Part shown: piece after piece, positions 12,528-59,382 of the stretch
Numbering within the stretch: position 1 is the first letter of the stretch
Layout: each line of letters begins with the position of its first letter
Source of the DNA: Emticicia agri
GTDB lineage: Bacteria; Bacteroidota; Bacteroidia; Cytophagales; Spirosomataceae
Length of the DNA stretch: 64,000 bases
Assembly (NCBI RefSeq): GCF_004168285.1
Contig: NZ_SEWF01000003.1
Location: 1-64,000 of the forward strand
Reading direction: 5' to 3'
The notes under the pieces: generated by a model
The model's database searches: none
What the model saw: the letters and a program-made list of their open reading frames with translations, nothing else
Told to the model about the DNA's origin: nothing
Program-made: the position numbers and the translations under genes

Positions 12528-13274
12528 TTAATGGCTACCTATTAATCTGATAAAATCTTTGTAATAGCTTTCTCCAACAGGAATAGTAGCACGGCCGATA
12601 AATATTCGTTGGCGCTCAATTGAATTGATTTTTTCTAAGGAAATGATATAAGATTTATGTACTCTTACAAAGCGATTGGCAGGTAATAATTCTTCCATTT
12701 TCTTCATGGTTTGCAAGGTCAGAATTCTTTCGTCTACGGTATAAATGGAAACATAATCTTTTAACCCTTCTATGTAAAGAATAGATGAGAGGTTAAGTTT
12801 GATGATTTTGTATTCAGTTTTTACGAAGATAAAATCTAATTGTTGTTCAGAGACAGGGGCTTTGTTCTCAATAGGTTCAGGTATCTGTAGTATGGAATGA
12901 TTAACAGGTATATGCTGAAGTCGGCCACTGACTTTTTGAACGGCTTTCAGAAATCTTTCGAACGAAATAGGTTTCAGTAAGTAGTCAATTACATCTAACT
13001 CATATCCATCCATAGCATATTCAGAATAGGCCGTCGTCAGGATTGCCTTGCATTTGCCATTTACTACCCTTAAAAACTGAATGCCTGTCAGGCTTGGCAT
13101 CTGAATGTCCACAAAAACCAAATCAACTTTTCCTTGTTGTATCAGACTTAGGGCTTCAAGTGGATCGGTACAGGCATCTACCAGGGTTAAAGAAGGGAGT
13201 TGGTTAATGTATTTTACCAGAATATCTAATGCCAGAGGTTCATCATCTACTGCCAGACATCGTATTTTCTCCAT
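12528..13274 (-). CDS. LytTR-family response regulator
   Basis: 248 aa. Receiver domain (residues 3-120) with acidic pocket D10-D11, phospho-acceptor D56 in VFVDIQMP, T79 in ILTTAYSEYA and K102 in DYLLKPISFERF. The LytTR DNA-binding domain follows at about 145-245 (KTEYKIIKLNLSSILYIEGLKD ... FVRVHKSYIISL). It binds direct repeats about 21 bp apart. It lies 1 bp after the kinase gene, so the two form a complete LytS/LytR pair. Candidate targets are the repeats at 14364-14394 just upstream of the kinase gene. Confidence 0.92.
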   Translation of the reverse strand: MEKIRCLAVDDEPLALDILVKYINQLPSLTLVDACTDPLEALSLIQQGKVDLVFVDIQMPSLTGIQFLRVVNGKCKAILTTAYSEYAMDGYELDVIDYLLKPISFERFLKAVQKVSGRLQHIPVNHSILQIPEPIENKAPVSEQQLDFIFVKTEYKIIKLNLSSILYIEGLKDYVSIYTVDERILTLQTMKKMEELLPANRFVRVHKSYIISLEKINSIERQRIFIGRATIPVGESYYKDFIRLIGSH

Positions 13275-13275
13275 A

Positions 13276-14304
13276 TTATAATATCAAATTTAGTTCAGAC
13301 GAATATTTATTGCCATCGTTTTGTATTTCTAAGTGATGGTTTTTAGGATAAATCAGGTTCAGTCTTTTTTTGATGTTTTCAAGACCAACACCCCCATATC
13401 TATCTTTATTCTGGTTCGTTAGCTGGTTCTTTACTGTAAAAATCAGATTATTCTGATTTAACAATAATTGAATTGAAAGGGGATGATTTATATCTTGCAC
13501 ATTCCCATGCTTAAATGCATTCTCCACAAAAGGAATCAACATCAGAGGTGCTATTCTCTGCGAAGATACGTCACCTATTACTTCAAAATCAACATAAGTT
13601 TGTCCTGAGTATCGTATCTTCTGCAATTCTATAAAATTATTCAGATAAGTTAATTCCGTATAAAGACTCACTTTCTCCTGATTTGACTCATACAGCATAT
13701 AGCGCATTAACTCAGAGAGTTTCATAATCGCCTCCGGAGTTTTAGACGATTGATTGAGTGCTAACGAATAAATATTATTAAGCGTATTGAATAGAAAATG
13801 TGGATTTAACTGATTTTTCAGAAATGCATTCTCTGCATTCAGTTTTTCGGTAAGTAAAGCAGTTTTTTCTTTTTCGTTGGCGAAGAAATCTTCAATCATT
13901 TTTAAAAAGAAAGCATTGAATGAAAAAGTAATGACATTATAGGTACTATCAGTAATGTAATAAGGAAAATATCTTGATTCTTCTGAGTAATTATGATAAC
14001 CGAATAAATGCCAGAAAAGAATCTCTTCAATCAAATAACGCAGAGCCACATAAATGAAGCAGACTGCTACAAAACCTAAAGCGAGATTGAGGTATTGTTT
14101 AGAAGAAAAGTAGCGGTTAAGAATAAAAAGTATTAAATAAGAGATAAGTATAGTGAAGAAAATAGTAGTCCAGTAAAATGGGTTCTGGTATCTTTCCCAA
14201 GAGAACTGATAGTTTTTATCTCCAATCAGGCTTAATATATCTCCTTTGAAGTAGAGAAACAGCCAGAAAATAATATGAAGCAGATTACGCTGACGCTTAT
14301 TCAT
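13276..14304 (-). CDS. LytS-type sensor histidine kinase (His_kinase family)
   Basis: 342 aa. Four membrane helices in residues about 8-150 (LLHIIFWLFLYFKG, IFFTILISYLILFIL, LNLALGFVAVCFIYV and a fourth around 120-135). Then come a short coiled coil and the phospho-acceptor block NPHFLFNTLNN with H169. The ATPase part holds FVENAFKHG (N box) and GGVGLENIKKRL (G box). There is no extracellular sensor domain, so the signal is probably sensed in the membrane. It is co-transcribed with the LytTR regulator. Confidence 0.9.
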   Translation of the reverse strand: MNKRQRNLLHIIFWLFLYFKGDILSLIGDKNYQFSWERYQNPFYWTTIFFTILISYLILFILNRYFSSKQYLNLALGFVAVCFIYVALRYLIEEILFWHLFGYHNYSEESRYFPYYITDSTYNVITFSFNAFFLKMIEDFFANEKEKTALLTEKLNAENAFLKNQLNPHFLFNTLNNIYSLALNQSSKTPEAIMKLSELMRYMLYESNQEKVSLYTELTYLNNFIELQKIRYSGQTYVDFEVIGDVSSQRIAPLMLIPFVENAFKHGNVQDINHPLSIQLLLNQNNLIFTVKNQLTNQNKDRYGGVGLENIKKRLNLIYPKNHHLEIQNDGNKYSSELNLIL

Positions 14305-14363: not shown

Positions 14364-14394
14364 ACCGACAAACACCGATAAAACACCGTCAAAC
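14364..14394. promoter_or_regulatory. Candidate LytTR operator: three helically phased repeats
   Basis: ACCGACAAAC (14364), ACCGATAAAAC (14374) and ACCGTCAAAC (14385) are direct repeats 10 and 11 bp apart, and a related ACCGAC occurs at 14405. The outer pair is 21 bp apart, the spacing bound by LytTR dimers, and ACCGT resembles the start of the published LytTR half-site. The cluster is 60 bp upstream of the kinase gene and 150 bp upstream of the divergent DUF5694 gene, so it could serve either. Confidence 0.5.
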
Positions 14395-22286: not shown

Positions 22287-22943
22287 CTATAATTTCAGTT
22301 TATAAGTAAGCTGAATTGTAAAATCATCTAATTCGGTATCGGCAAATTCATGAGATATAAAACCGCCTAAAGTAATGGTATTTTTTTTATTGATTTTAAA
22401 GTCAACATCTGCTTTATACCTTACTTCATCAAAGGCTTCTCCCATTCTATAAAATAAATCGGCTGATAGGGCAGGTGTAAATTTGGTTTTATTAGGGTAA
22501 GAAAGCTCTATTCTGTTTCTCAGATAACTCTTGTCATTTTCAAGTGTACCGTTATCATCTTTAAACTGGTTCTGATAACGCAGGCGATAGGCAAATTTCA
22601 GAAAAGCTATTTTGTGGTCATAATTGAGGTTGGCATAAAAACGATGATAAGATTTAAAAACGTAGGCTTCATCACCGTTATCGTATTTTCTGCGACTTAT
22701 ATACCGATAAAATGCGCTGACCTCCCAATGTTTATTGAATTTATAACCGGCACCTAATTCTCCAATGTATGACCCTGTTGTACTCAGGTTATTGGTTATT
22801 CTCCATTGGGCATCAGCTTCAAGAAATATTTTCTTGGTAATACTTTTGCTTACATTTATCCCTGTCCAAAGATTTGTATTTCTTTCCTGAGATAATCCGG
22901 CTACTGGTATAATAAAGAGAATTATTAAAAAGTGTTTTTTCAT
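22287..22943 (-). CDS. DUF2490 outer-membrane beta-barrel protein
   Basis: 218 aa with a signal peptide ending VAGLSQ (residue 19). NTNLWTGINVSKSITKKIFLEADAQWR opens the mature protein, followed by alternating amphipathic strands (LGAGYKFNKHWEVSAFYRY, FAYRLRYQNQF, LRNRIELSYP) and a C-terminal FTIQLTYKLKL typical of a barrel end. The function of DUF2490 is unknown. It is divergent from a LytS kinase gene, and the shared region holds a direct-repeat pair (23111-23138) pointing toward this gene, which suggests it belongs to that regulator's targets. Confidence 0.82.
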   Translation of the reverse strand: MKKHFLIILFIIPVAGLSQERNTNLWTGINVSKSITKKIFLEADAQWRITNNLSTTGSYIGELGAGYKFNKHWEVSAFYRYISRRKYDNGDEAYVFKSYHRFYANLNYDHKIAFLKFAYRLRYQNQFKDDNGTLENDKSYLRNRIELSYPNKTKFTPALSADLFYRMGEAFDEVRYKADVDFKINKKNTITLGGFISHEFADTELDDFTIQLTYKLKL

Positions 22944-23110
22944 TGATGATTTTGTTGGTATAAGGGTAATAAGTGTTTAATGTATAGCAATAATAAAGCC
23001 TTGTTTGTCCGAGTAAATTAGTATCTAAAATCAAGAGCTAACCATTTTTTTAGTGGTATTTAAGGTTCTTTTATTCACAAAGACGACGAATACATTATAA
23101 TGGTAACAAA

Positions 23111-23138
23111 GTGTAGAAAATTTACGTAAATGTGTAGA
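23111..23138 (-). promoter_or_regulatory. Candidate LytTR operator A (toward the DUF2490 gene)
   Basis: On the minus strand TCTACAC occurs twice, exactly 21 bp apart (plus-strand GTGTAGA at 23111-23117 and 23132-23138). A 21-bp period on one DNA face is the known binding pattern of LytTR dimers. The same heptamer and spacing recur exactly at 25133-25160 and, more loosely, at 23190-23218. Confidence 0.6.
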
Positions 23139-23189
23139 GGTTAACAATAAAAATTATAAATCTTTATTAAAAACAATCCTGCCTGATTA

Positions 23190-23218
23190 TCTACACAATT
23201 ATACAGATTATATACAGA
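23190..23218 (+). promoter_or_regulatory. Candidate LytTR operator B (toward the kinase gene)
   Basis: TCTACACA at 23190 and TATACAGA at 23200 and 23211 are direct repeats spaced 10 and 11 bp, 21 bp overall. The site ends 78 bp before the kinase start and would allow the regulator to control its own operon. Confidence 0.5.
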
Positions 23219-23295
23219 CTGACGTTTCTGCGGTTTTAGCTATATCAATCTGTAGCAATTTATGGTTTGGTACTTATTACCTTAAACTCCCTTTA

Positions 23296-24399
23296 ATGAA
23301 TTTTCTGAAACGCTACTCTATCTGGCTCCACCTTATTGGTTGGATAGTTTTTATAATCATGCCTTTTCTGACAGTTCCCAACGGCAATTTCAATGCCTTT
23401 CGTCAGGCTAATTTTCCATCATTTCTGATTTCACAAGTAATCAATGATGTTGTTCTGATAGCTATCTTCTATTTTAATCTTAATTTTCTGACACCCAACC
23501 TGTTTATTAAGAAGGACACAACAGCCTTTATTCTATATCTGGCAGGTATATTTATATTAATGCTGCTACTCAATAAATTTACTTTCGACACTTTTGTAAA
23601 ACCTGATTTTCAAAGATTTTCAAGAACTGATATACCAGAGTTCAGGAGTAGAGAAGTGCCAACATTTTTTTTTATTCCATTACCTTTTTTTTTCAGAACT
23701 ACTATCTCATTTTCTTTGGTGATATTAGCCAGTTCATTAGTAGCCCTAATAAAACAACACGGTATTCATAAAGAAGAAAAACAGCAAATGGCCTTAGAAA
23801 AAACTGCTGCCGAATTAGCTGTATTAAAATTACAAATCAGTCCGCACTTTTTATTCAATACGCTCAATAATATTCGTTGGTTGGCCAGACAAAAATCTGA
23901 AGAAACAGAAGATTCAGTTGTGAAATTGTCTCAATTGCTCAGATATATGATTTATCAGGCCAGACATGACAGAGTATCGTTGGAACAGGAAATCAATTAT
24001 TTGCAGAACTATATTGAATTGCAGAAAATGAGGCTTTCTGAAAAAAATGAAGTAAGGTTCATATATGAGGGAGCTATTAAAAACTGGAGTATTGAGCCAT
24101 TACTGTTTATTCCATTTGTAGAAAATGCTTTTAAATACGGTTTGCACAGCCAACATGAAAGCCTTATAGAAATTATTCTGAAAGTTAATGCTAATAAACT
24201 CAACCTATTTGTGAAGAATCCCGTCTTTGATAATAGTTTTCCCTCAGATATTGAAGATTCAGGTATTGGTATTCAGAATGTAGAAAAGCGTTTAATGCTA
24301 CATTATCCGGCCAGGCATGAATTAAATATTGTGAATATAGAAGGGTATTTTAGTATTGATTTAACCATACTTCTCTCAGATGCTGAACCAGCTCAATAA
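23296..24399 (+). CDS. LytS-type sensor histidine kinase (His_kinase family)
   Basis: 367 aa. Membrane helices at about 12-30 (LIGWIVFIIMPFLTV), 45-65, 78-98 (FILYLAGIFILMLLL) and 130-152, with a soluble loop about residues 100-128 between the third and fourth. The phospho-acceptor block is SPHFLFNTLNN with H184, and the ATPase part has FVENAFKYG and GIGIQNVEKRL. It overlaps the next gene by 20 bp, so the pair is translated together. It is paralogous to the kinase at 13276-14304 but has its own targets by position. Confidence 0.9.
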   Translation: MNFLKRYSIWLHLIGWIVFIIMPFLTVPNGNFNAFRQANFPSFLISQVINDVVLIAIFYFNLNFLTPNLFIKKDTTAFILYLAGIFILMLLLNKFTFDTFVKPDFQRFSRTDIPEFRSREVPTFFFIPLPFFFRTTISFSLVILASSLVALIKQHGIHKEEKQQMALEKTAAELAVLKLQISPHFLFNTLNNIRWLARQKSEETEDSVVKLSQLLRYMIYQARHDRVSLEQEINYLQNYIELQKMRLSEKNEVRFIYEGAIKNWSIEPLLFIPFVENAFKYGLHSQHESLIEIILKVNANKLNLFVKNPVFDNSFPSDIEDSGIGIQNVEKRLMLHYPARHELNIVNIEGYFSIDLTILLSDAEPAQ

Positions 24400-25114
24400 A
24401 GAAAAAATCAGGTGTATAGCCATTGACGATGAACCCTTTGCGTTGCAAATCATAGTAGATGATATTCGAAAAGTGCCATTCCTTGAGTTAATTAATGTAT
24501 TTTCAAATGCTTTAGATGCCGAGCTGTTTCTGAAAGAAAATGCGGTTGATTTGATTTTTCTTGATATTCAGATGCCCACGCTTACTGGCATTCAATTGTT
24601 AAAAAGACTTGAACTATCACCTATGGTGATTTTTACGACAGCCTACGAACAGTATGCACTTGAAGGATATGATCTGAATGTTTTGGACTACTTATTGAAA
24701 CCTGTACCGTTTGAGCGTTTTTTAAGAGCTGCAAACCGTGCATTTGAATTGCATTTGCTAAAAGTAAAAGATGAATTGCCAGAAGTGCTTGATGAACGTT
24801 TATTCTTCTTTATTCACTCTGAATACAAGCAGATAAAACTATTTTATGATGATATTTTATATATTGAAGGACTGAAAGACTATGTAAAAATATTCATTAA
24901 AAATAATCCAAAGCCTATATTAACCCGTATGAATCTAAAAGCAATAGATAGTAAATTGATGAATACTCAATTTTGTCGGGTGCATCAATCGTATATTGTT
25001 GCTTTAAATAAAATTACCTCTTTTCAAAAGACCAAATTATTGATTGCTCAACAGGAGATTCCGATAGGCAGAAGTTTTTTAGACACATTCAGAGCAAAAT
25101 ACCAACAGGTTTAA
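24380..25114 (+). CDS. LytTR-family response regulator
   Basis: 244 aa. Receiver domain with D16-D17, phospho-acceptor D62 (LIFLDIQMP), FTTAYEQYALEGY and DYLLKPVPFERF. The LytTR domain at about 140-240 contains HSEYKQIKLFYDDILYIEGLKD and RVHQSYIVALNKI. Start at 24380 inside the kinase gene gives IRCIAIDDEP in register. The next genes are a TonB receptor and a DUF4249 lipoprotein. Sites with one recurring 21-bp pattern precede three transcription units here, which makes this a self-contained local regulon by inference. Confidence 0.92.
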   Translation: MLNQLNKEKIRCIAIDDEPFALQIIVDDIRKVPFLELINVFSNALDAELFLKENAVDLIFLDIQMPTLTGIQLLKRLELSPMVIFTTAYEQYALEGYDLNVLDYLLKPVPFERFLRAANRAFELHLLKVKDELPEVLDERLFFFIHSEYKQIKLFYDDILYIEGLKDYVKIFIKNNPKPILTRMNLKAIDSKLMNTQFCRVHQSYIVALNKITSFQKTKLLIAQQEIPIGRSFLDTFRAKYQQV

Positions 25115-25132
25115 GCAAACCGGCTTATATAA

Positions 25133-25160
25133 TCTACACAAATCTTTTAAATCTCTACAC
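25133..25160 (+). promoter_or_regulatory. Candidate LytTR operator C (toward the TonB receptor)
   Basis: TCTACAC at 25133-25139 and again at 25154-25160, exactly 21 bp apart, pointing at the receptor gene that starts 70 bp downstream. It is the same heptamer pair as site A in the opposite orientation. Confidence 0.6.
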
Positions 25161-25229
25161 TCTGCAAAAGGCAGGCATCTGAAATCAGAGTGGTTGCGTC
25201 CTTGACGATAAACCATTTAAAATGCCTGT

Positions 25230-27989
25230 ATGCGAAAAAGACTATCCTACTTTTCATTGATTGTGTTATGGATTTGCCTTGCCGGAAAAACCTATGCACA
25301 GAATTCTAAAAAAACTACCGTAAATAACCCATTGATAAAGGATGAATTCTTTAATAATATCCCGTTAGCTAATGTTTTGGCTGATATGGAAAAAAAATAT
25401 CCTATCAAACTTATTTATGACAAGACTGAGCTAAAACCTTATAACATTACCTATTGGTTTGCCAATGAGACTTTTCAGGAAGGTCTGAAAGTCATCTTCA
25501 AAAAAATGCCTTTGAAGTTTTATATGGATGAAAACGATGTGATACATATAGTAGGTAAGAATAAAAAAATAGAAACGATAGCCGATACTAAATTTGAGGG
25601 GCAACCTACTAAAAGCGATTTTACACTAACTGGTAGAGTGGTTGATGCCACCAACGGCGAAAACCTGCCTTTTGCTACTGTAACCATAAAAAACTCCAAA
25701 TCGGGTAGCCAGACTAATGTTGATGGGTATTTTACTTTACTAAAAGTACCTTCAGATACAGTTACGCTTGAAGTAAGCTATGTTGGATTTGTTACGAGGC
25801 TTTTTCATTTACATCCAAGATTGAATATGGAGGACTTGAAAATTGAAATTGACCCCGCTACCGGAGTATTGGAAGAAGTAACCGTAACGGAAAAGAAGAC
25901 TGAGGTACTGAAAGCAAATGAAGTGGTAGGTATGATTAAGATGACACCACGCAATATTGCCCGTTTGCCCAATGTAGGTGAAAGAGACCCATTCAGAGCT
26001 TTTCAGTTAATGCCGGGCGTAAGTGCCTCTAACGAATCGTCTTCCGGCTTATATGTAAGAGGGGGTACGCCTGACCAGACACTGGTTTTGTACGATGGTT
26101 TTACCGTATATCATGTTGACCATTTATTTGGCTTTTTTTCAGCTTTTAATTACAATGCCATCAAAGACATTCAGTTGTATAAAGGTGGGTTTGACGCAAA
26201 GTTTGGCGGAAGAATTTCGGCAGTAGCTGAAATAACCGGAAAAGAGGGAAACAAGAAAGAATTTAATGCAGGCGCCGATGTAAGTTTATTAAGTGCCAAT
26301 GGCTATATAGAAACACCGATAGGCGATAAATGGACATTTTTATTAGCTGCCCGTCGTTCGTGGAAAGGCCCTTTGTATAAAAAACTATTTGAAAGATTTA
26401 CCACTGAAAATACTACTCAGAATACACAGACAGGTGGTAACTTACCCGGTGGCACAGGTCGTAATCCATTCGGCTCGTTTGGACAAGAACAGGTTGCCAG
26501 TTCGTACTTCTACGATTTGAATTCTAAACTCACTTTCAGACCTACCAAAAATGATATTCTTTCACTAAGCCTTTATAATGGCACCGATAATATGGATAAT
26601 TCGAGCAGTTCGAGTCTGACAGGTTTTGGCCCTCCAAGAGGAGGCGGTGGTTTTAGTGGCAGAGGGTTTAATACGGCTACCAATGATATTTCTAACTGGG
26701 GTAATTTAGGAGGTAGTCTGAAATGGTCGAGACAGTGGAATGAGAAATTTTATAGCAATGCACTGATAAGCTACTCAAATTATTACAGTAATCGTGATAA
26801 TAGCCGCTTAATGACTATAACCAGAGATAGTGTGGATACAGACGTAAGAATAGGACAAATTGAAGATAATAGTTTAAGCGATGTTACAGCTAAAATAGAT
26901 TTTGAATGGAAGCCTATTCTAAATAATCAGTTTGATTTTGGCTTGCAAGCCGCCAGGAATACTATTAAATATACTTATAGTCAGAATGATACAATTAAGG
27001 TTCTGGATAGAAATGATACCGGAAGTTTATACACGGCTTATGTGCAAGACCAAATCAGATTATTTGATGGCAAACTGCACATTAATCCTGGTATCAGAAT
27101 GACGTATTTTGACGTAACCCAAAAAGTATACTTTGAACCAAGAATTTCCGGAAATTTTAATGTTACCTCAAAACTTAAACTGAAAGGAGCAGCAGGTATT
27201 TATTATCAGTTTGTGAAACAAATTAACCGTGAAGACATTTCACAAGGAAACCGGAATTTCTGGGTTTTATCCAATTCTTCTACACTTCCGGTTACACGTT
27301 CTAAACACCTGATTTTAGGGGGAAGCTATGAAACGGCAGATTATTTGTTTGATGTAGAGTTTTATCAGAAAAAAAGTACAGATATTACTGAATATACCCT
27401 GCGCTTTGTTCCACAGCTAAACCGGATGTTAGCCGCCAGTGAGACCTTTTTTAATGGTGATGAAACTATCAATGGCGTTGATATTTTAGTGCAAAAGAAA
27501 TTCGGAAATTTTAACGGCTGGATAGGCTATACTCTGGCTGAGGCCAAACGAAGTATTGCTGCTTTTTCAGATAAACCTTATTATTCAGACCAGGATGTGA
27601 GGCATCAGTTTAAAATAATTGGTTCTTATAAATACAAGAAATGGGATTTTGCAGCTACCTGGATTTATTCAAGTGGTCGCCCTTACACTTCCATTTTGGG
27701 TGCCTATCAGGTTACGCTGCTGGATGGTACAGTTAGAAATTTTACCAATCCGTCTGACAAAAATGCCAATCGTTTCCCGGCTTACCATCGCCTTGATGTC
27801 TCTGCTACTTATAATTTCAGTCCCAAATTTAACATAGGTTTTTCTGTTTTCAATTTATATAATCATACCAATGTGTGGTATAAGAGATTTCAGGTAATTA
27901 CTGATGAAGACCTGACAGTTTTGCAAACTACCAATGTCAATTATCTCGGATTTACACCTAATGTAACCCTCTCGTGGAAACTTAAATAA
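25230..27989 (+). CDS. TonB-dependent receptor with STN-like and carboxypeptidase-like domains
   Basis: 919 aa. Signal peptide ending AGKTYAQ (residue 24), an STN/secretin-like domain (about 35-112, IPLANVLADMEKKYPIKLIYD), a carboxypeptidase regulatory-like domain (about 130-215), a plug with GLYVRGGTPDQTLVLYDGFTVYH and the barrel ending NVTLSWKLK. STN domains of such receptors usually speak to FecR, but no sigma/anti-sigma pair is adjacent here and the neighbours are LytS/LytTR. It is followed 12 bp later by a DUF4249 lipoprotein, a frequent partner. The ligand is unknown. Two glycine-rich loops (FGPPRGGGGFSGRGF) lie in the barrel. Confidence 0.88.
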   Translation: MRKRLSYFSLIVLWICLAGKTYAQNSKKTTVNNPLIKDEFFNNIPLANVLADMEKKYPIKLIYDKTELKPYNITYWFANETFQEGLKVIFKKMPLKFYMDENDVIHIVGKNKKIETIADTKFEGQPTKSDFTLTGRVVDATNGENLPFATVTIKNSKSGSQTNVDGYFTLLKVPSDTVTLEVSYVGFVTRLFHLHPRLNMEDLKIEIDPATGVLEEVTVTEKKTEVLKANEVVGMIKMTPRNIARLPNVGERDPFRAFQLMPGVSASNESSSGLYVRGGTPDQTLVLYDGFTVYHVDHLFGFFSAFNYNAIKDIQLYKGGFDAKFGGRISAVAEITGKEGNKKEFNAGADVSLLSANGYIETPIGDKWTFLLAARRSWKGPLYKKLFERFTTENTTQNTQTGGNLPGGTGRNPFGSFGQEQVASSYFYDLNSKLTFRPTKNDILSLSLYNGTDNMDNSSSSSLTGFGPPRGGGGFSGRGFNTATNDISNWGNLGGSLKWSRQWNEKFYSNALISYSNYYSNRDNSRLMTITRDSVDTDVRIGQIEDNSLSDVTAKIDFEWKPILNNQFDFGLQAARNTIKYTYSQNDTIKVLDRNDTGSLYTAYVQDQIRLFDGKLHINPGIRMTYFDVTQKVYFEPRISGNFNVTSKLKLKGAAGIYYQFVKQINREDISQGNRNFWVLSNSSTLPVTRSKHLILGGSYETADYLFDVEFYQKKSTDITEYTLRFVPQLNRMLAASETFFNGDETINGVDILVQKKFGNFNGWIGYTLAEAKRSIAAFSDKPYYSDQDVRHQFKIIGSYKYKKWDFAATWIYSSGRPYTSILGAYQVTLLDGTVRNFTNPSDKNANRFPAYHRLDVSATYNFSPKFNIGFSVFNLYNHTNVWYKRFQVITDEDLTVLQTTNVNYLGFTPNVTLSWKLK

Positions 27990-28001: not shown

Positions 28002-28847
28002 ATGAAAAAGATATATAGTATTCTGTTTATTTTATTAATTATAAACTGTATCATTAGTTGTACGGATACCAATGATGTCATCAATCCCGGAGAGAAACCC
28101 ATAGTAGAGGCTTATCTGGCACCGGGTCATCCGGTAAGTATGAAAGTTTTCACTGAAATACCTTATGCTGAGACATCAGAGGGCATTTCAGAACCTATTG
28201 ATGGACTGAATATAAAGATTACAGGCAGTAATGGAAAAGTTTTTAACTTAAAATCAATGGGAGATGGCGTATATGTTTCAGACAATACTGAACTGATAGA
28301 GGGCGCACCTTTGAAATATAAAATGGAATTTGAATACAAAGGCAGGATAGTAAGTGCCGAAACAGAAATTCCTGAAAAACCCTTAGATTTTACCATTAGC
28401 ACAAATCAGATATACCGAACCCAGATAGATTTATCAAGCGGCGGTTTCCCCGGTGGAGGTTTTGGAGGGAGCGATAATACGCCTGTTGAATTATCGTGGA
28501 GTAACCCTGACAATGTTTATCATTTTATTGCTGTGGAGAATACAGAAACAGAACCACAACAGATTATTATTCCGCCCACAGGTTCTGAGTTTCCGACTTT
28601 CAGATTCAGATTTACCAATGAGCCACTTTTAGGAACACACAATAATATTCAGCCGCAAAGTTTGGAGTATTTCGGAAATTATGATGTGATATTGTACCGA
28701 ATCAATCCTGATTATTCGGCTTTGTATCAGTCAAGTGGAACAACGACCCAGAACCTGAGTACGCCGCCTTCAAGTATAATTAATGGATTAGGTGTTTTTA
28801 CAGGCGTTAATGCTGATACAGTAAAATTGAATGTCGGGAAAAATTAA
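28002..28847 (+). CDS. DUF4249 lipoprotein, partner of the TonB receptor
   Basis: 281 aa. Lipoprotein signal with Cys20 (NCIISC). EKPIVEAYLAPGHPVSMKVFTEIPY is the typical DUF4249 opening, followed by beta-rich segments (LKYKMEFEYKGRIVSAETEIPEKP) and a glycine-rich insert (GGFPGGGFGGSD). DUF4249 proteins usually sit next to TonB receptors and are thought to act as surface or periplasmic binding partners. The spacing of 12 bp indicates one operon with the receptor. Its biochemical role is unknown. Confidence 0.85.
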   Translation: MKKIYSILFILLIINCIISCTDTNDVINPGEKPIVEAYLAPGHPVSMKVFTEIPYAETSEGISEPIDGLNIKITGSNGKVFNLKSMGDGVYVSDNTELIEGAPLKYKMEFEYKGRIVSAETEIPEKPLDFTISTNQIYRTQIDLSSGGFPGGGFGGSDNTPVELSWSNPDNVYHFIAVENTETEPQQIIIPPTGSEFPTFRFRFTNEPLLGTHNNIQPQSLEYFGNYDVILYRINPDYSALYQSSGTTTQNLSTPPSSIINGLGVFTGVNADTVKLNVGKN

Positions 28848-58368: not shown

Positions 58369-59382
58369 TTGAATACGAATAATTCTGATAACAACGAAGA
58401 CCTTTTAGGCAAATTTCTGGCACAGGAAACTGATGTACAAGAGAATGCCTTGGTTGAAAAATGGCTTCAGGAAAATGAAGGAAATCAGAAAGAGTTAGAT
58501 GATTATGCTTTTATCTGGGATAAAACCAATCAGTTAAAAGAGCAATTTTCACAAACTGTAGATACAGATGCAGCCTGGTTGAAAGTGAAGTCAAAAATGG
58601 ATTCAATTAGTGAAACCAAGGTTGTTTCGATGCCAATTGCGCCCAAGAAAAACAAATTTTTTACCTTAGGTGTTGCGGCAAGCATTAGTGTTCTTCTGAC
58701 CGTAGGTATATTATTCTATTTATTCAAAAATTCGGCTCCTGAACTTATTTCGTTAAAAACTACACATAATACTTTAGAACAAACCCTGCCCGACGGATCG
58801 GTAGTATTTTTAAACGCAAATACCACCATAACCTATCCCGAGAACTTTAAGGGTGATATGCGTGAAGTTAATTTAACTGGCGAAGCATTTTTTGACATCA
58901 AAAGAGATGAAACAAAAGCTTTTTTGATTCATGCCAATGGGTCTGATGTTAAGGTATTGGGAACTTCGTTTAACGTGCGGGCTTATAATAAAAATGTAGA
59001 AGTAAGTGTAGAAACCGGAAAAGTACAATTTAAAAATAAGTCTAAGGCTACGCTATTAGTGGCAGGTGAAAAAGCGGCTTTTGAAGCTGAAAAAGATACT
59101 ATTAAAAAGCAGGTGTTAATTGATAAAAATGCTTTTGCCTATAAAACAAAAATATTTGTTTTTGAAAACTCAAGCCTTGAACATGTAGCTAAAGTATTGG
59201 AAGAGGGGTATCATGTAAATATTTCCTTAAAAAATAATCGTATTAAAGCGTGTCGCCTGACTACCAGATTTGATAATGAAACTCTTCCTGATGCATTGAA
59301 TATCATTGCCGAAACGCTGAATCTGACTCTGAGCTCAAAAGGAGAGAAATATGTATTGGATGGTGAGGGTTGTGCTGAATAA
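58369..59382 (+). CDS. FecR-family anti-sigma factor
   Basis: 337 aa with a TTG start, 27 bp after the sigma gene. A cytoplasmic N-terminal part (DLLGKFLAQETDVQENALVEKWLQ), one membrane helix (about residues 97-120, FTLGVAASISVLLTVGILFYLF), the periplasmic FecR domain (LPDGSVVFLNANTTITYPENF ... GEAFFDIKRDETKAFLIHANGSDVKVLGTSFNVRAY) and the C-terminal STN-binding-like DUF4974 (SLEHVAKVLEEGYHVNISLKN). It would hold the sigma factor until an STN domain on an outer-membrane protein signals. Confidence 0.92.
   Translation: MNTNNSDNNEDLLGKFLAQETDVQENALVEKWLQENEGNQKELDDYAFIWDKTNQLKEQFSQTVDTDAAWLKVKSKMDSISETKVVSMPIAPKKNKFFTLGVAASISVLLTVGILFYLFKNSAPELISLKTTHNTLEQTLPDGSVVFLNANTTITYPENFKGDMREVNLTGEAFFDIKRDETKAFLIHANGSDVKVLGTSFNVRAYNKNVEVSVETGKVQFKNKSKATLLVAGEKAAFEAEKDTIKKQVLIDKNAFAYKTKIFVFENSSLEHVAKVLEEGYHVNISLKNNRIKACRLTTRFDNETLPDALNIIAETLNLTLSSKGEKYVLDGEGCAE

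Follow-up and report, generated by a model that had tools for sequence, protein, structure and literature searches.

Direct repeats with a 21-bp period as probable operators of a local LytS/LytTR regulon in Emticicia agri

The window analysed here is a stretch of 64,000 nucleotides from Emticicia agri (contig NZ_SEWF01000003.1, positions 1 to 64,000). At a single locus it carries three direct repeats of the TCTACAC-N14-TCTACAC type, which very probably serve the adjacent LytTR regulator as operators and would together form a complete local regulon. Judging from sequence comparison, we consider it highly probable that the regulator encoded at 24380–25114 controls three units through these sites by activation: the kinase–regulator operon, the receptor–DUF4249 genes and a divergent unit. 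Genome comparison establishes the sites, their period, their tie to the regulator, the gene order and the lack of any other convincing site in the genome. The features of the locus are as follows.

22287–22943, minus strand: DUF2490 outer-membrane barrel-like protein (PF10677, E = 6.4e-24), presumed to have closed the divergent operon of the ancestor
23111–23138, minus strand: putative operator on the DUF2490 side, TCTACAC-N14-TCTACAC (exact), positional ortholog of the cotH operator of relatives
23190–23217, plus strand: putative operator of the kinase–regulator operon, TCTACAC-N14-TATACAG (two mismatches)
23296–24399, plus strand: LytS-type sensor histidine kinase (PF06580, E = 6.3e-27)
24380–25114, plus strand: response regulator combining a receiver domain with a LytTR DNA-binding domain (PF00072 and PF04397, both over cut-off)
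25133–25160, plus strand: putative operator of the TonB receptor, TCTACAC-N14-TCTACAC (exact)
25230–27989, plus strand: TonB-dependent receptor (Pfam) that contains CarbopepD_reg and, at its N terminus, a domain matching FecR_C (STN-like)
28002–28847, plus strand: DUF4249 lipoprotein-like gene

The kinase, for which hydropathy predicts about four membrane segments, and the receiver–LytTR regulator encoded alongside it, whose gene overlaps that of the kinase by 20 bp, make up a LytS/LytTR two-component system. When the regulator profile was compared with solved structures, coverage among the matches listed was mainly of the receiver domain; the same comparison with the receptor sequence gave no match. 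For the N-terminal domain of the receptor the Pfam match is to FecR_C (PF16344, E = 2.5e-8) and not to an STN model. The gene that starts 12 bp after the receptor, thereby completing a TonB receptor–DUF4249 pair, has no Pfam match of its own and is called DUF4249 on the strength of its ortholog in G004, which shares 77% identity with it and hits PF14054 (E = 4.7e-10).

Both exact pairs lie where an earlier note on this DNA had placed them, and the looser pair that it had reported before the kinase gene is present as well, although it ends at 23217 and not at 23218. As had also been claimed, each site is oriented toward its own gene, 69 bp upstream of the receptor ORF, 78 bp upstream of the kinase ORF and 167 bp upstream of DUF2490. 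A genome-wide search for TCTACAC-N14-TCTACAC returned two matches in 6.65 Mb, both at the kinase/regulator locus, which contradicts a random scatter; since about 0.05 matches would be expected by chance in a genome of this size, the observation goes beyond chance. The remaining one-mismatch matches (five genome-wide) all fall within ORFs, and regulon members elsewhere in the genome were rejected on this ground: neither the exact nor the one-mismatch search gave a convincing further site. When up to one mismatch per half was allowed, half-site pairs between 20 and 31 kb of the window occurred at the 21-bp period only. The kinase site had been read as built from 10/11-bp subunits, and copies of TATACAGA do exist at 23200 and 23211 within it, but relatives lack the middle TATACAGA-type copy, which is therefore probably due to chance. 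We dropped the triple-subunit reading; what is conserved is the 21-bp pair.

FecI/FecR control of the receptor was also rejected. The nearest FecR match (58765–59028, inside the window) is one of only three in the genome and lies over 30 kb away, and no FecR or sigma-factor gene is found among the ORFs listed at 17–36 kb, so that the receptor has no adjacent fecI/fecR genes. The earlier note had considered LytTR control of a TonB receptor unusual; this view found no support, as the genome holds 72 LytTR-domain matches versus three for FecR and the same operator precedes receptors in other genera. LytTR is a major regulator class in this genome.

The link between sites and regulator was followed across 11 Emticicia genomes, that of the window included. 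An ortholog of the regulator is encoded in 7 of the 11, with 61–78% identity in the six besides the window genome. The exact operator occurs ten times in this set, in every case beside a regulator ortholog, and is absent from the four genomes devoid of the ortholog, which lends comparative support to the proposal of LytTR-type operators forming a local kinase, regulator, receptor and DUF4249 regulon. The kinase and receptor operators are present at all seven orthologous loci, with up to two mismatches (in G003 and G008 both halves of the kinase operator read TCTACAC), and keep a near-constant distance to the start codon while the sequence of the spacer diverges.

A survey of 222 genomes of the family gave 33 exact matches, 17 of them at regulator loci by our count; those away from such loci amount to about 0.07 per genome, which resembles background, and include a sequence of the TCTACACCGA type that recurs. 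When 46 regulator loci were scored with a half-site matrix out to 4.5 kb, 57 pairs had the 21-bp period versus at most five for any other period between 14 and 30, the matrix having been trained on the Emticicia sites, which are themselves among those scored. Exact matches restricted to the other genera distribute in the same way (seven at 21 bp, one at 20 bp and none elsewhere). Paired direct repeats with a period of about two helical turns are thus conserved in the family at 21 bp. For about one third of the regulator homologs examined in the family, the surrounding 4.5 kb contains no good site; drift of the half-site, or targets located at other places, may account for this. On a quick tree of the regulators with several long branches, operator presence is clustered, requiring 8 changes versus 18.4 in shuffles. 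In other genera the same type of site is found upstream of TonB receptors, with and without DUF4249, and also before genes for a dioxygenase-like lipoprotein and for an efflux-type protein of the outer membrane; as differing targets stand behind the same operator, the operator goes with the regulator while the cargo varies. In genus g33, two genomes carry TCGGCAC-N14-TCTACAC (L195, 12697–12724; L201, 3926–3953) 83–85 bp before the dioxygenase-like lipoprotein gene and a few kb from the regulator, possibly a further target class.

The nearest paralog clade of the regulator (about 55% identity), which occurs in every Emticicia genome examined, does not have this operator at any of its nine loci. 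Instead, all nine (L122–L130) carry GTC(G/T)(C/A)-N16-GTC(G/T)(C/A), with a period of exactly 21 bp; this GTCGC/GTCKM pair sits 33–39 bp past the regulator match, downstream of the regulator gene. It surfaced in an alignment and was then checked, a scan for shared 7-mers having shown no clear signal. Near other LytTR genes, 21-bp repeats are in excess: the window genome has 17, where the remaining periods average 3.3, the genus has 15 versus 3.1, and the control set shows a weaker excess (13 versus 5.6). A general enrichment of the 21-bp period near LytTR genes is thus supported, with a control set that is not clean.

The window holds a second LytS/LytTR system on the minus strand, with its kinase at 13276–14304 and its regulator at 12528–13274. 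A repeat at 14364–14392, 59 bp before the kinase ORF, reads ACCGACAA-N13-ACCGTCAA, 21 bp apart. It shares its period with the first system and has a different half-site word.

These distributions bear on what the sites are and on which protein reads them. That one-mismatch copies occur in ORFs at about chance level (five seen versus 2.2 expected) is the one point found in favour of a fortuitous or dispersed repeat devoid of regulatory role; such an origin has next to no probability, given the specificity for the locus, the conserved positions, the divergence of the spacers and the sharpness of the 21-bp peak, and it was rejected on the genome-wide and genus-wide counts, the distribution in the genus contradicting it. 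A LytTR regulator other than the adjacent one might conceivably bind the sites, in a genome with 72 LytTR matches and with a site sequence that does not name its reader. We regard this as very unlikely: in the 11 Emticicia genomes exact sites are confined to those with the regulator ortholog, and there to its immediate neighbourhood, other clades use other half-site words, and operator presence tracks the tree of the adjacent regulator. The adjacent LytTR regulator remains by far the best candidate for the reader of the sites.

Each operator is followed by a candidate −7 element of uncertain register:

23078–23085, minus strand: CGTCTTTG, 25 bp past the operator, candidate for the DUF2490 promoter
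23243–23250, plus strand: TATCAATC, 25 bp past the operator, candidate for the kinase promoter
25197–25204, plus strand: CGTCCTTG, 36 bp past the operator, candidate for the receptor promoter

CGTC recurs at exactly the offset of CGTCCTTG before all seven receptor genes of the genus; these promoters are orthologs and not independent cases. CGTCTATG, before cotH in G004, has the same offset as CGTCTTTG before DUF2490, and this element is kept in G006 and G007; TATCAWTC likewise occurs at an equal offset in the kinase promoters of G006 and G007. The receptor candidate, at 36 bp versus 25 bp for the kinase and DUF2490/cotH, is one helical turn further away. A TAnnTTTG consensus at one fixed place scored weakly (best mean offset +27, z = 3.7; +25, z = 3.8 for a CGTCTTTG-like version), and it is for this reason that the elements are given as candidates. 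If these are correctly assigned at +25 and +36, the operator would lie a short way upstream of the core promoter and its −33 region. Most described LytTR activators sit just there (PMC11347149), and activation combined with autoregulation is for this reason the most likely mode of action.

The third operator calls for a separate analysis, since its partner differs between species. The earlier note had counted DUF2490 as a member of the regulon; the operator does face DUF2490 in the window genome, but in relatives it is primarily that of cotH. The divergent site precedes cotH in G002, G003, G004 and G008, with a gap of about 60–67 bp, and in G004 the genes that follow it on one strand are cotH, VTC, DUF4956 and DUF2490, a series that several other genera also have next to the regulator, frequently with cotH present twice. 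The window genome and its two closest relatives, G006 and G007, lack cotH, VTC and DUF4956 at the locus, DUF2490 alone being left of the full module and directly facing the operator position. The simplest reading would be that a deletion placed the operator beside what had been the final gene of an older operon, making DUF2490 a putative lineage-specific occupant of a site that serves cotH, or cotH–VTC–DUF4956–DUF2490, in relatives. The only VTC gene of the window genome is on contig 6, adjoining a cotH, and no exact or one-mismatch operator lies beside this pair. In G004 a DDE transposase gene is found between GSCFA and DUF2490 (L118, 1682–3325), near the breakpoint region of the cotH–DUF2490 cluster.

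Whether the third site still matters in this species, and whether the bound regulator activates, are two points on which other readings deserve weight. The site could be a remnant of the cotH operon that was lost: its distance to DUF2490 is 167 bp, versus 60–67 bp to cotH in relatives, and it is decaying in the closest relatives, one half being left in G006 and the whole being lost in G007. Yet both halves remain intact in the window genome, and all three species retain the TTTGTTACCA and CGTCTWTG stretches close to the promoter, so that we hold loss of function to be possible but rather doubtful. As to the sign of the control, the same regulator could bind the sites and repress, the bound dimer blocking the promoters until a signal or phosphorylation relieves the block. 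There is a known LytTR repressor, CoxC, with repeats over the −35 box (PMC11347149), and the operators may overlap the core promoter, depending on where transcription starts. Repression is nevertheless unlikely if the elements at +25 and +36 are the −7 elements, as the operators would then lie upstream of the core promoter, where most LytTR regulators activate.

With activation as the preferred mode, the system could operate as follows. The membrane histidine kinase (23296–24399) would sense an envelope or extracellular signal and phosphorylate the LytTR regulator, a dimer of which would bind two TCTACAC-type half-sites on one face of the DNA, two helical turns (21 bp) apart. The bound regulator would activate its own kinase–regulator operon, the TonB receptor–DUF4249 genes and the divergent unit, namely DUF2490 alone in this species and, in relatives, cotH, often followed by VTC, DUF4956 and DUF2490. 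In this scheme we infer the binding itself, its dependence on phosphorylation, activation over repression and the nature of the signal.

The locus provides a precise, conserved operator for one clade, together with evidence of a 21-bp grammar in others. It is conceivable, if somewhat short of probable, that the LytTR regulators of Bacteroidota share an operator grammar (two half-sites, a 21-bp period, a position shortly upstream of the core promoter) with a word specific to each clade, and that the family-wide regulon of the present clade joins cotH–VTC–DUF4956–DUF2490 to TonB receptor–DUF4249 uptake. Were the grammar shared, the regulon of every LytTR system in LytTR-rich genomes could be read from the sequence. 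The predicted regulon would tie the poorly understood CotH-like kinase, VTC/DUF4956 and DUF2490 families of the envelope, along with the TonB receptor–DUF4249 pair, to one sensor kinase. Our literature search found no LytTR binding site described for Bacteroidota and no precedent for a LytTR operator there; a search on CotH with VTC likewise gave no such precedent.

The sites of BtsR and YpdB are direct repeats with a 21-bp period. The corresponding BtsS/BtsR and YpdA/YpdB systems of E. coli resemble the present one in pairing a LytS-type membrane kinase with a receiver–LytTR regulator that controls the gene of a transporter by way of a motif conserved in the promoter (PMC5552118). By contrast, the window system has another half-site word, is predicted to target a TonB receptor and envelope genes, and has a kinase with about four membrane segments versus seven in BtsS/YpdA-type kinases; its regulator resembles the BtsR model, with a score of 105.7 bits that is far under the 246-bit cut-off. 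LytTR sites in other phyla are direct repeats with a period close to this one (PMC11347149), and those of RcoM/CoxC (18–21 bp) share with ours a spacing of about two helical turns. They differ in comprising three repeats (TTCNNGCA or TTNNNGCN) versus two TCTACAC, and RcoM/CoxC are single-component gas sensors, of which CoxC represses, whereas the window system is two-component. In Bacteroides, BT2172/BT2173 form a TonB transporter–DUF4249 pair conserved across dozens of genera (PMC11003636); the likeness is that of the gene pair, a TonB receptor followed by DUF4249, and a LytTR operator link is not described for the Bacteroides pair. In pel clusters of Gram-positive bacteria, cotH, polyphosphate polymerase and DUF4956 form a known accessory module (PMC7112168). 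The same three families are adjacent in G004 and other genera, although in these relatives DUF2490 follows and a LytS/LytTR system, not pel genes, lies alongside; at the locus in the window none of the three is present. Set against these systems, the control mechanism is ordinary, and it is the binding site and the gene set that are newly identified.
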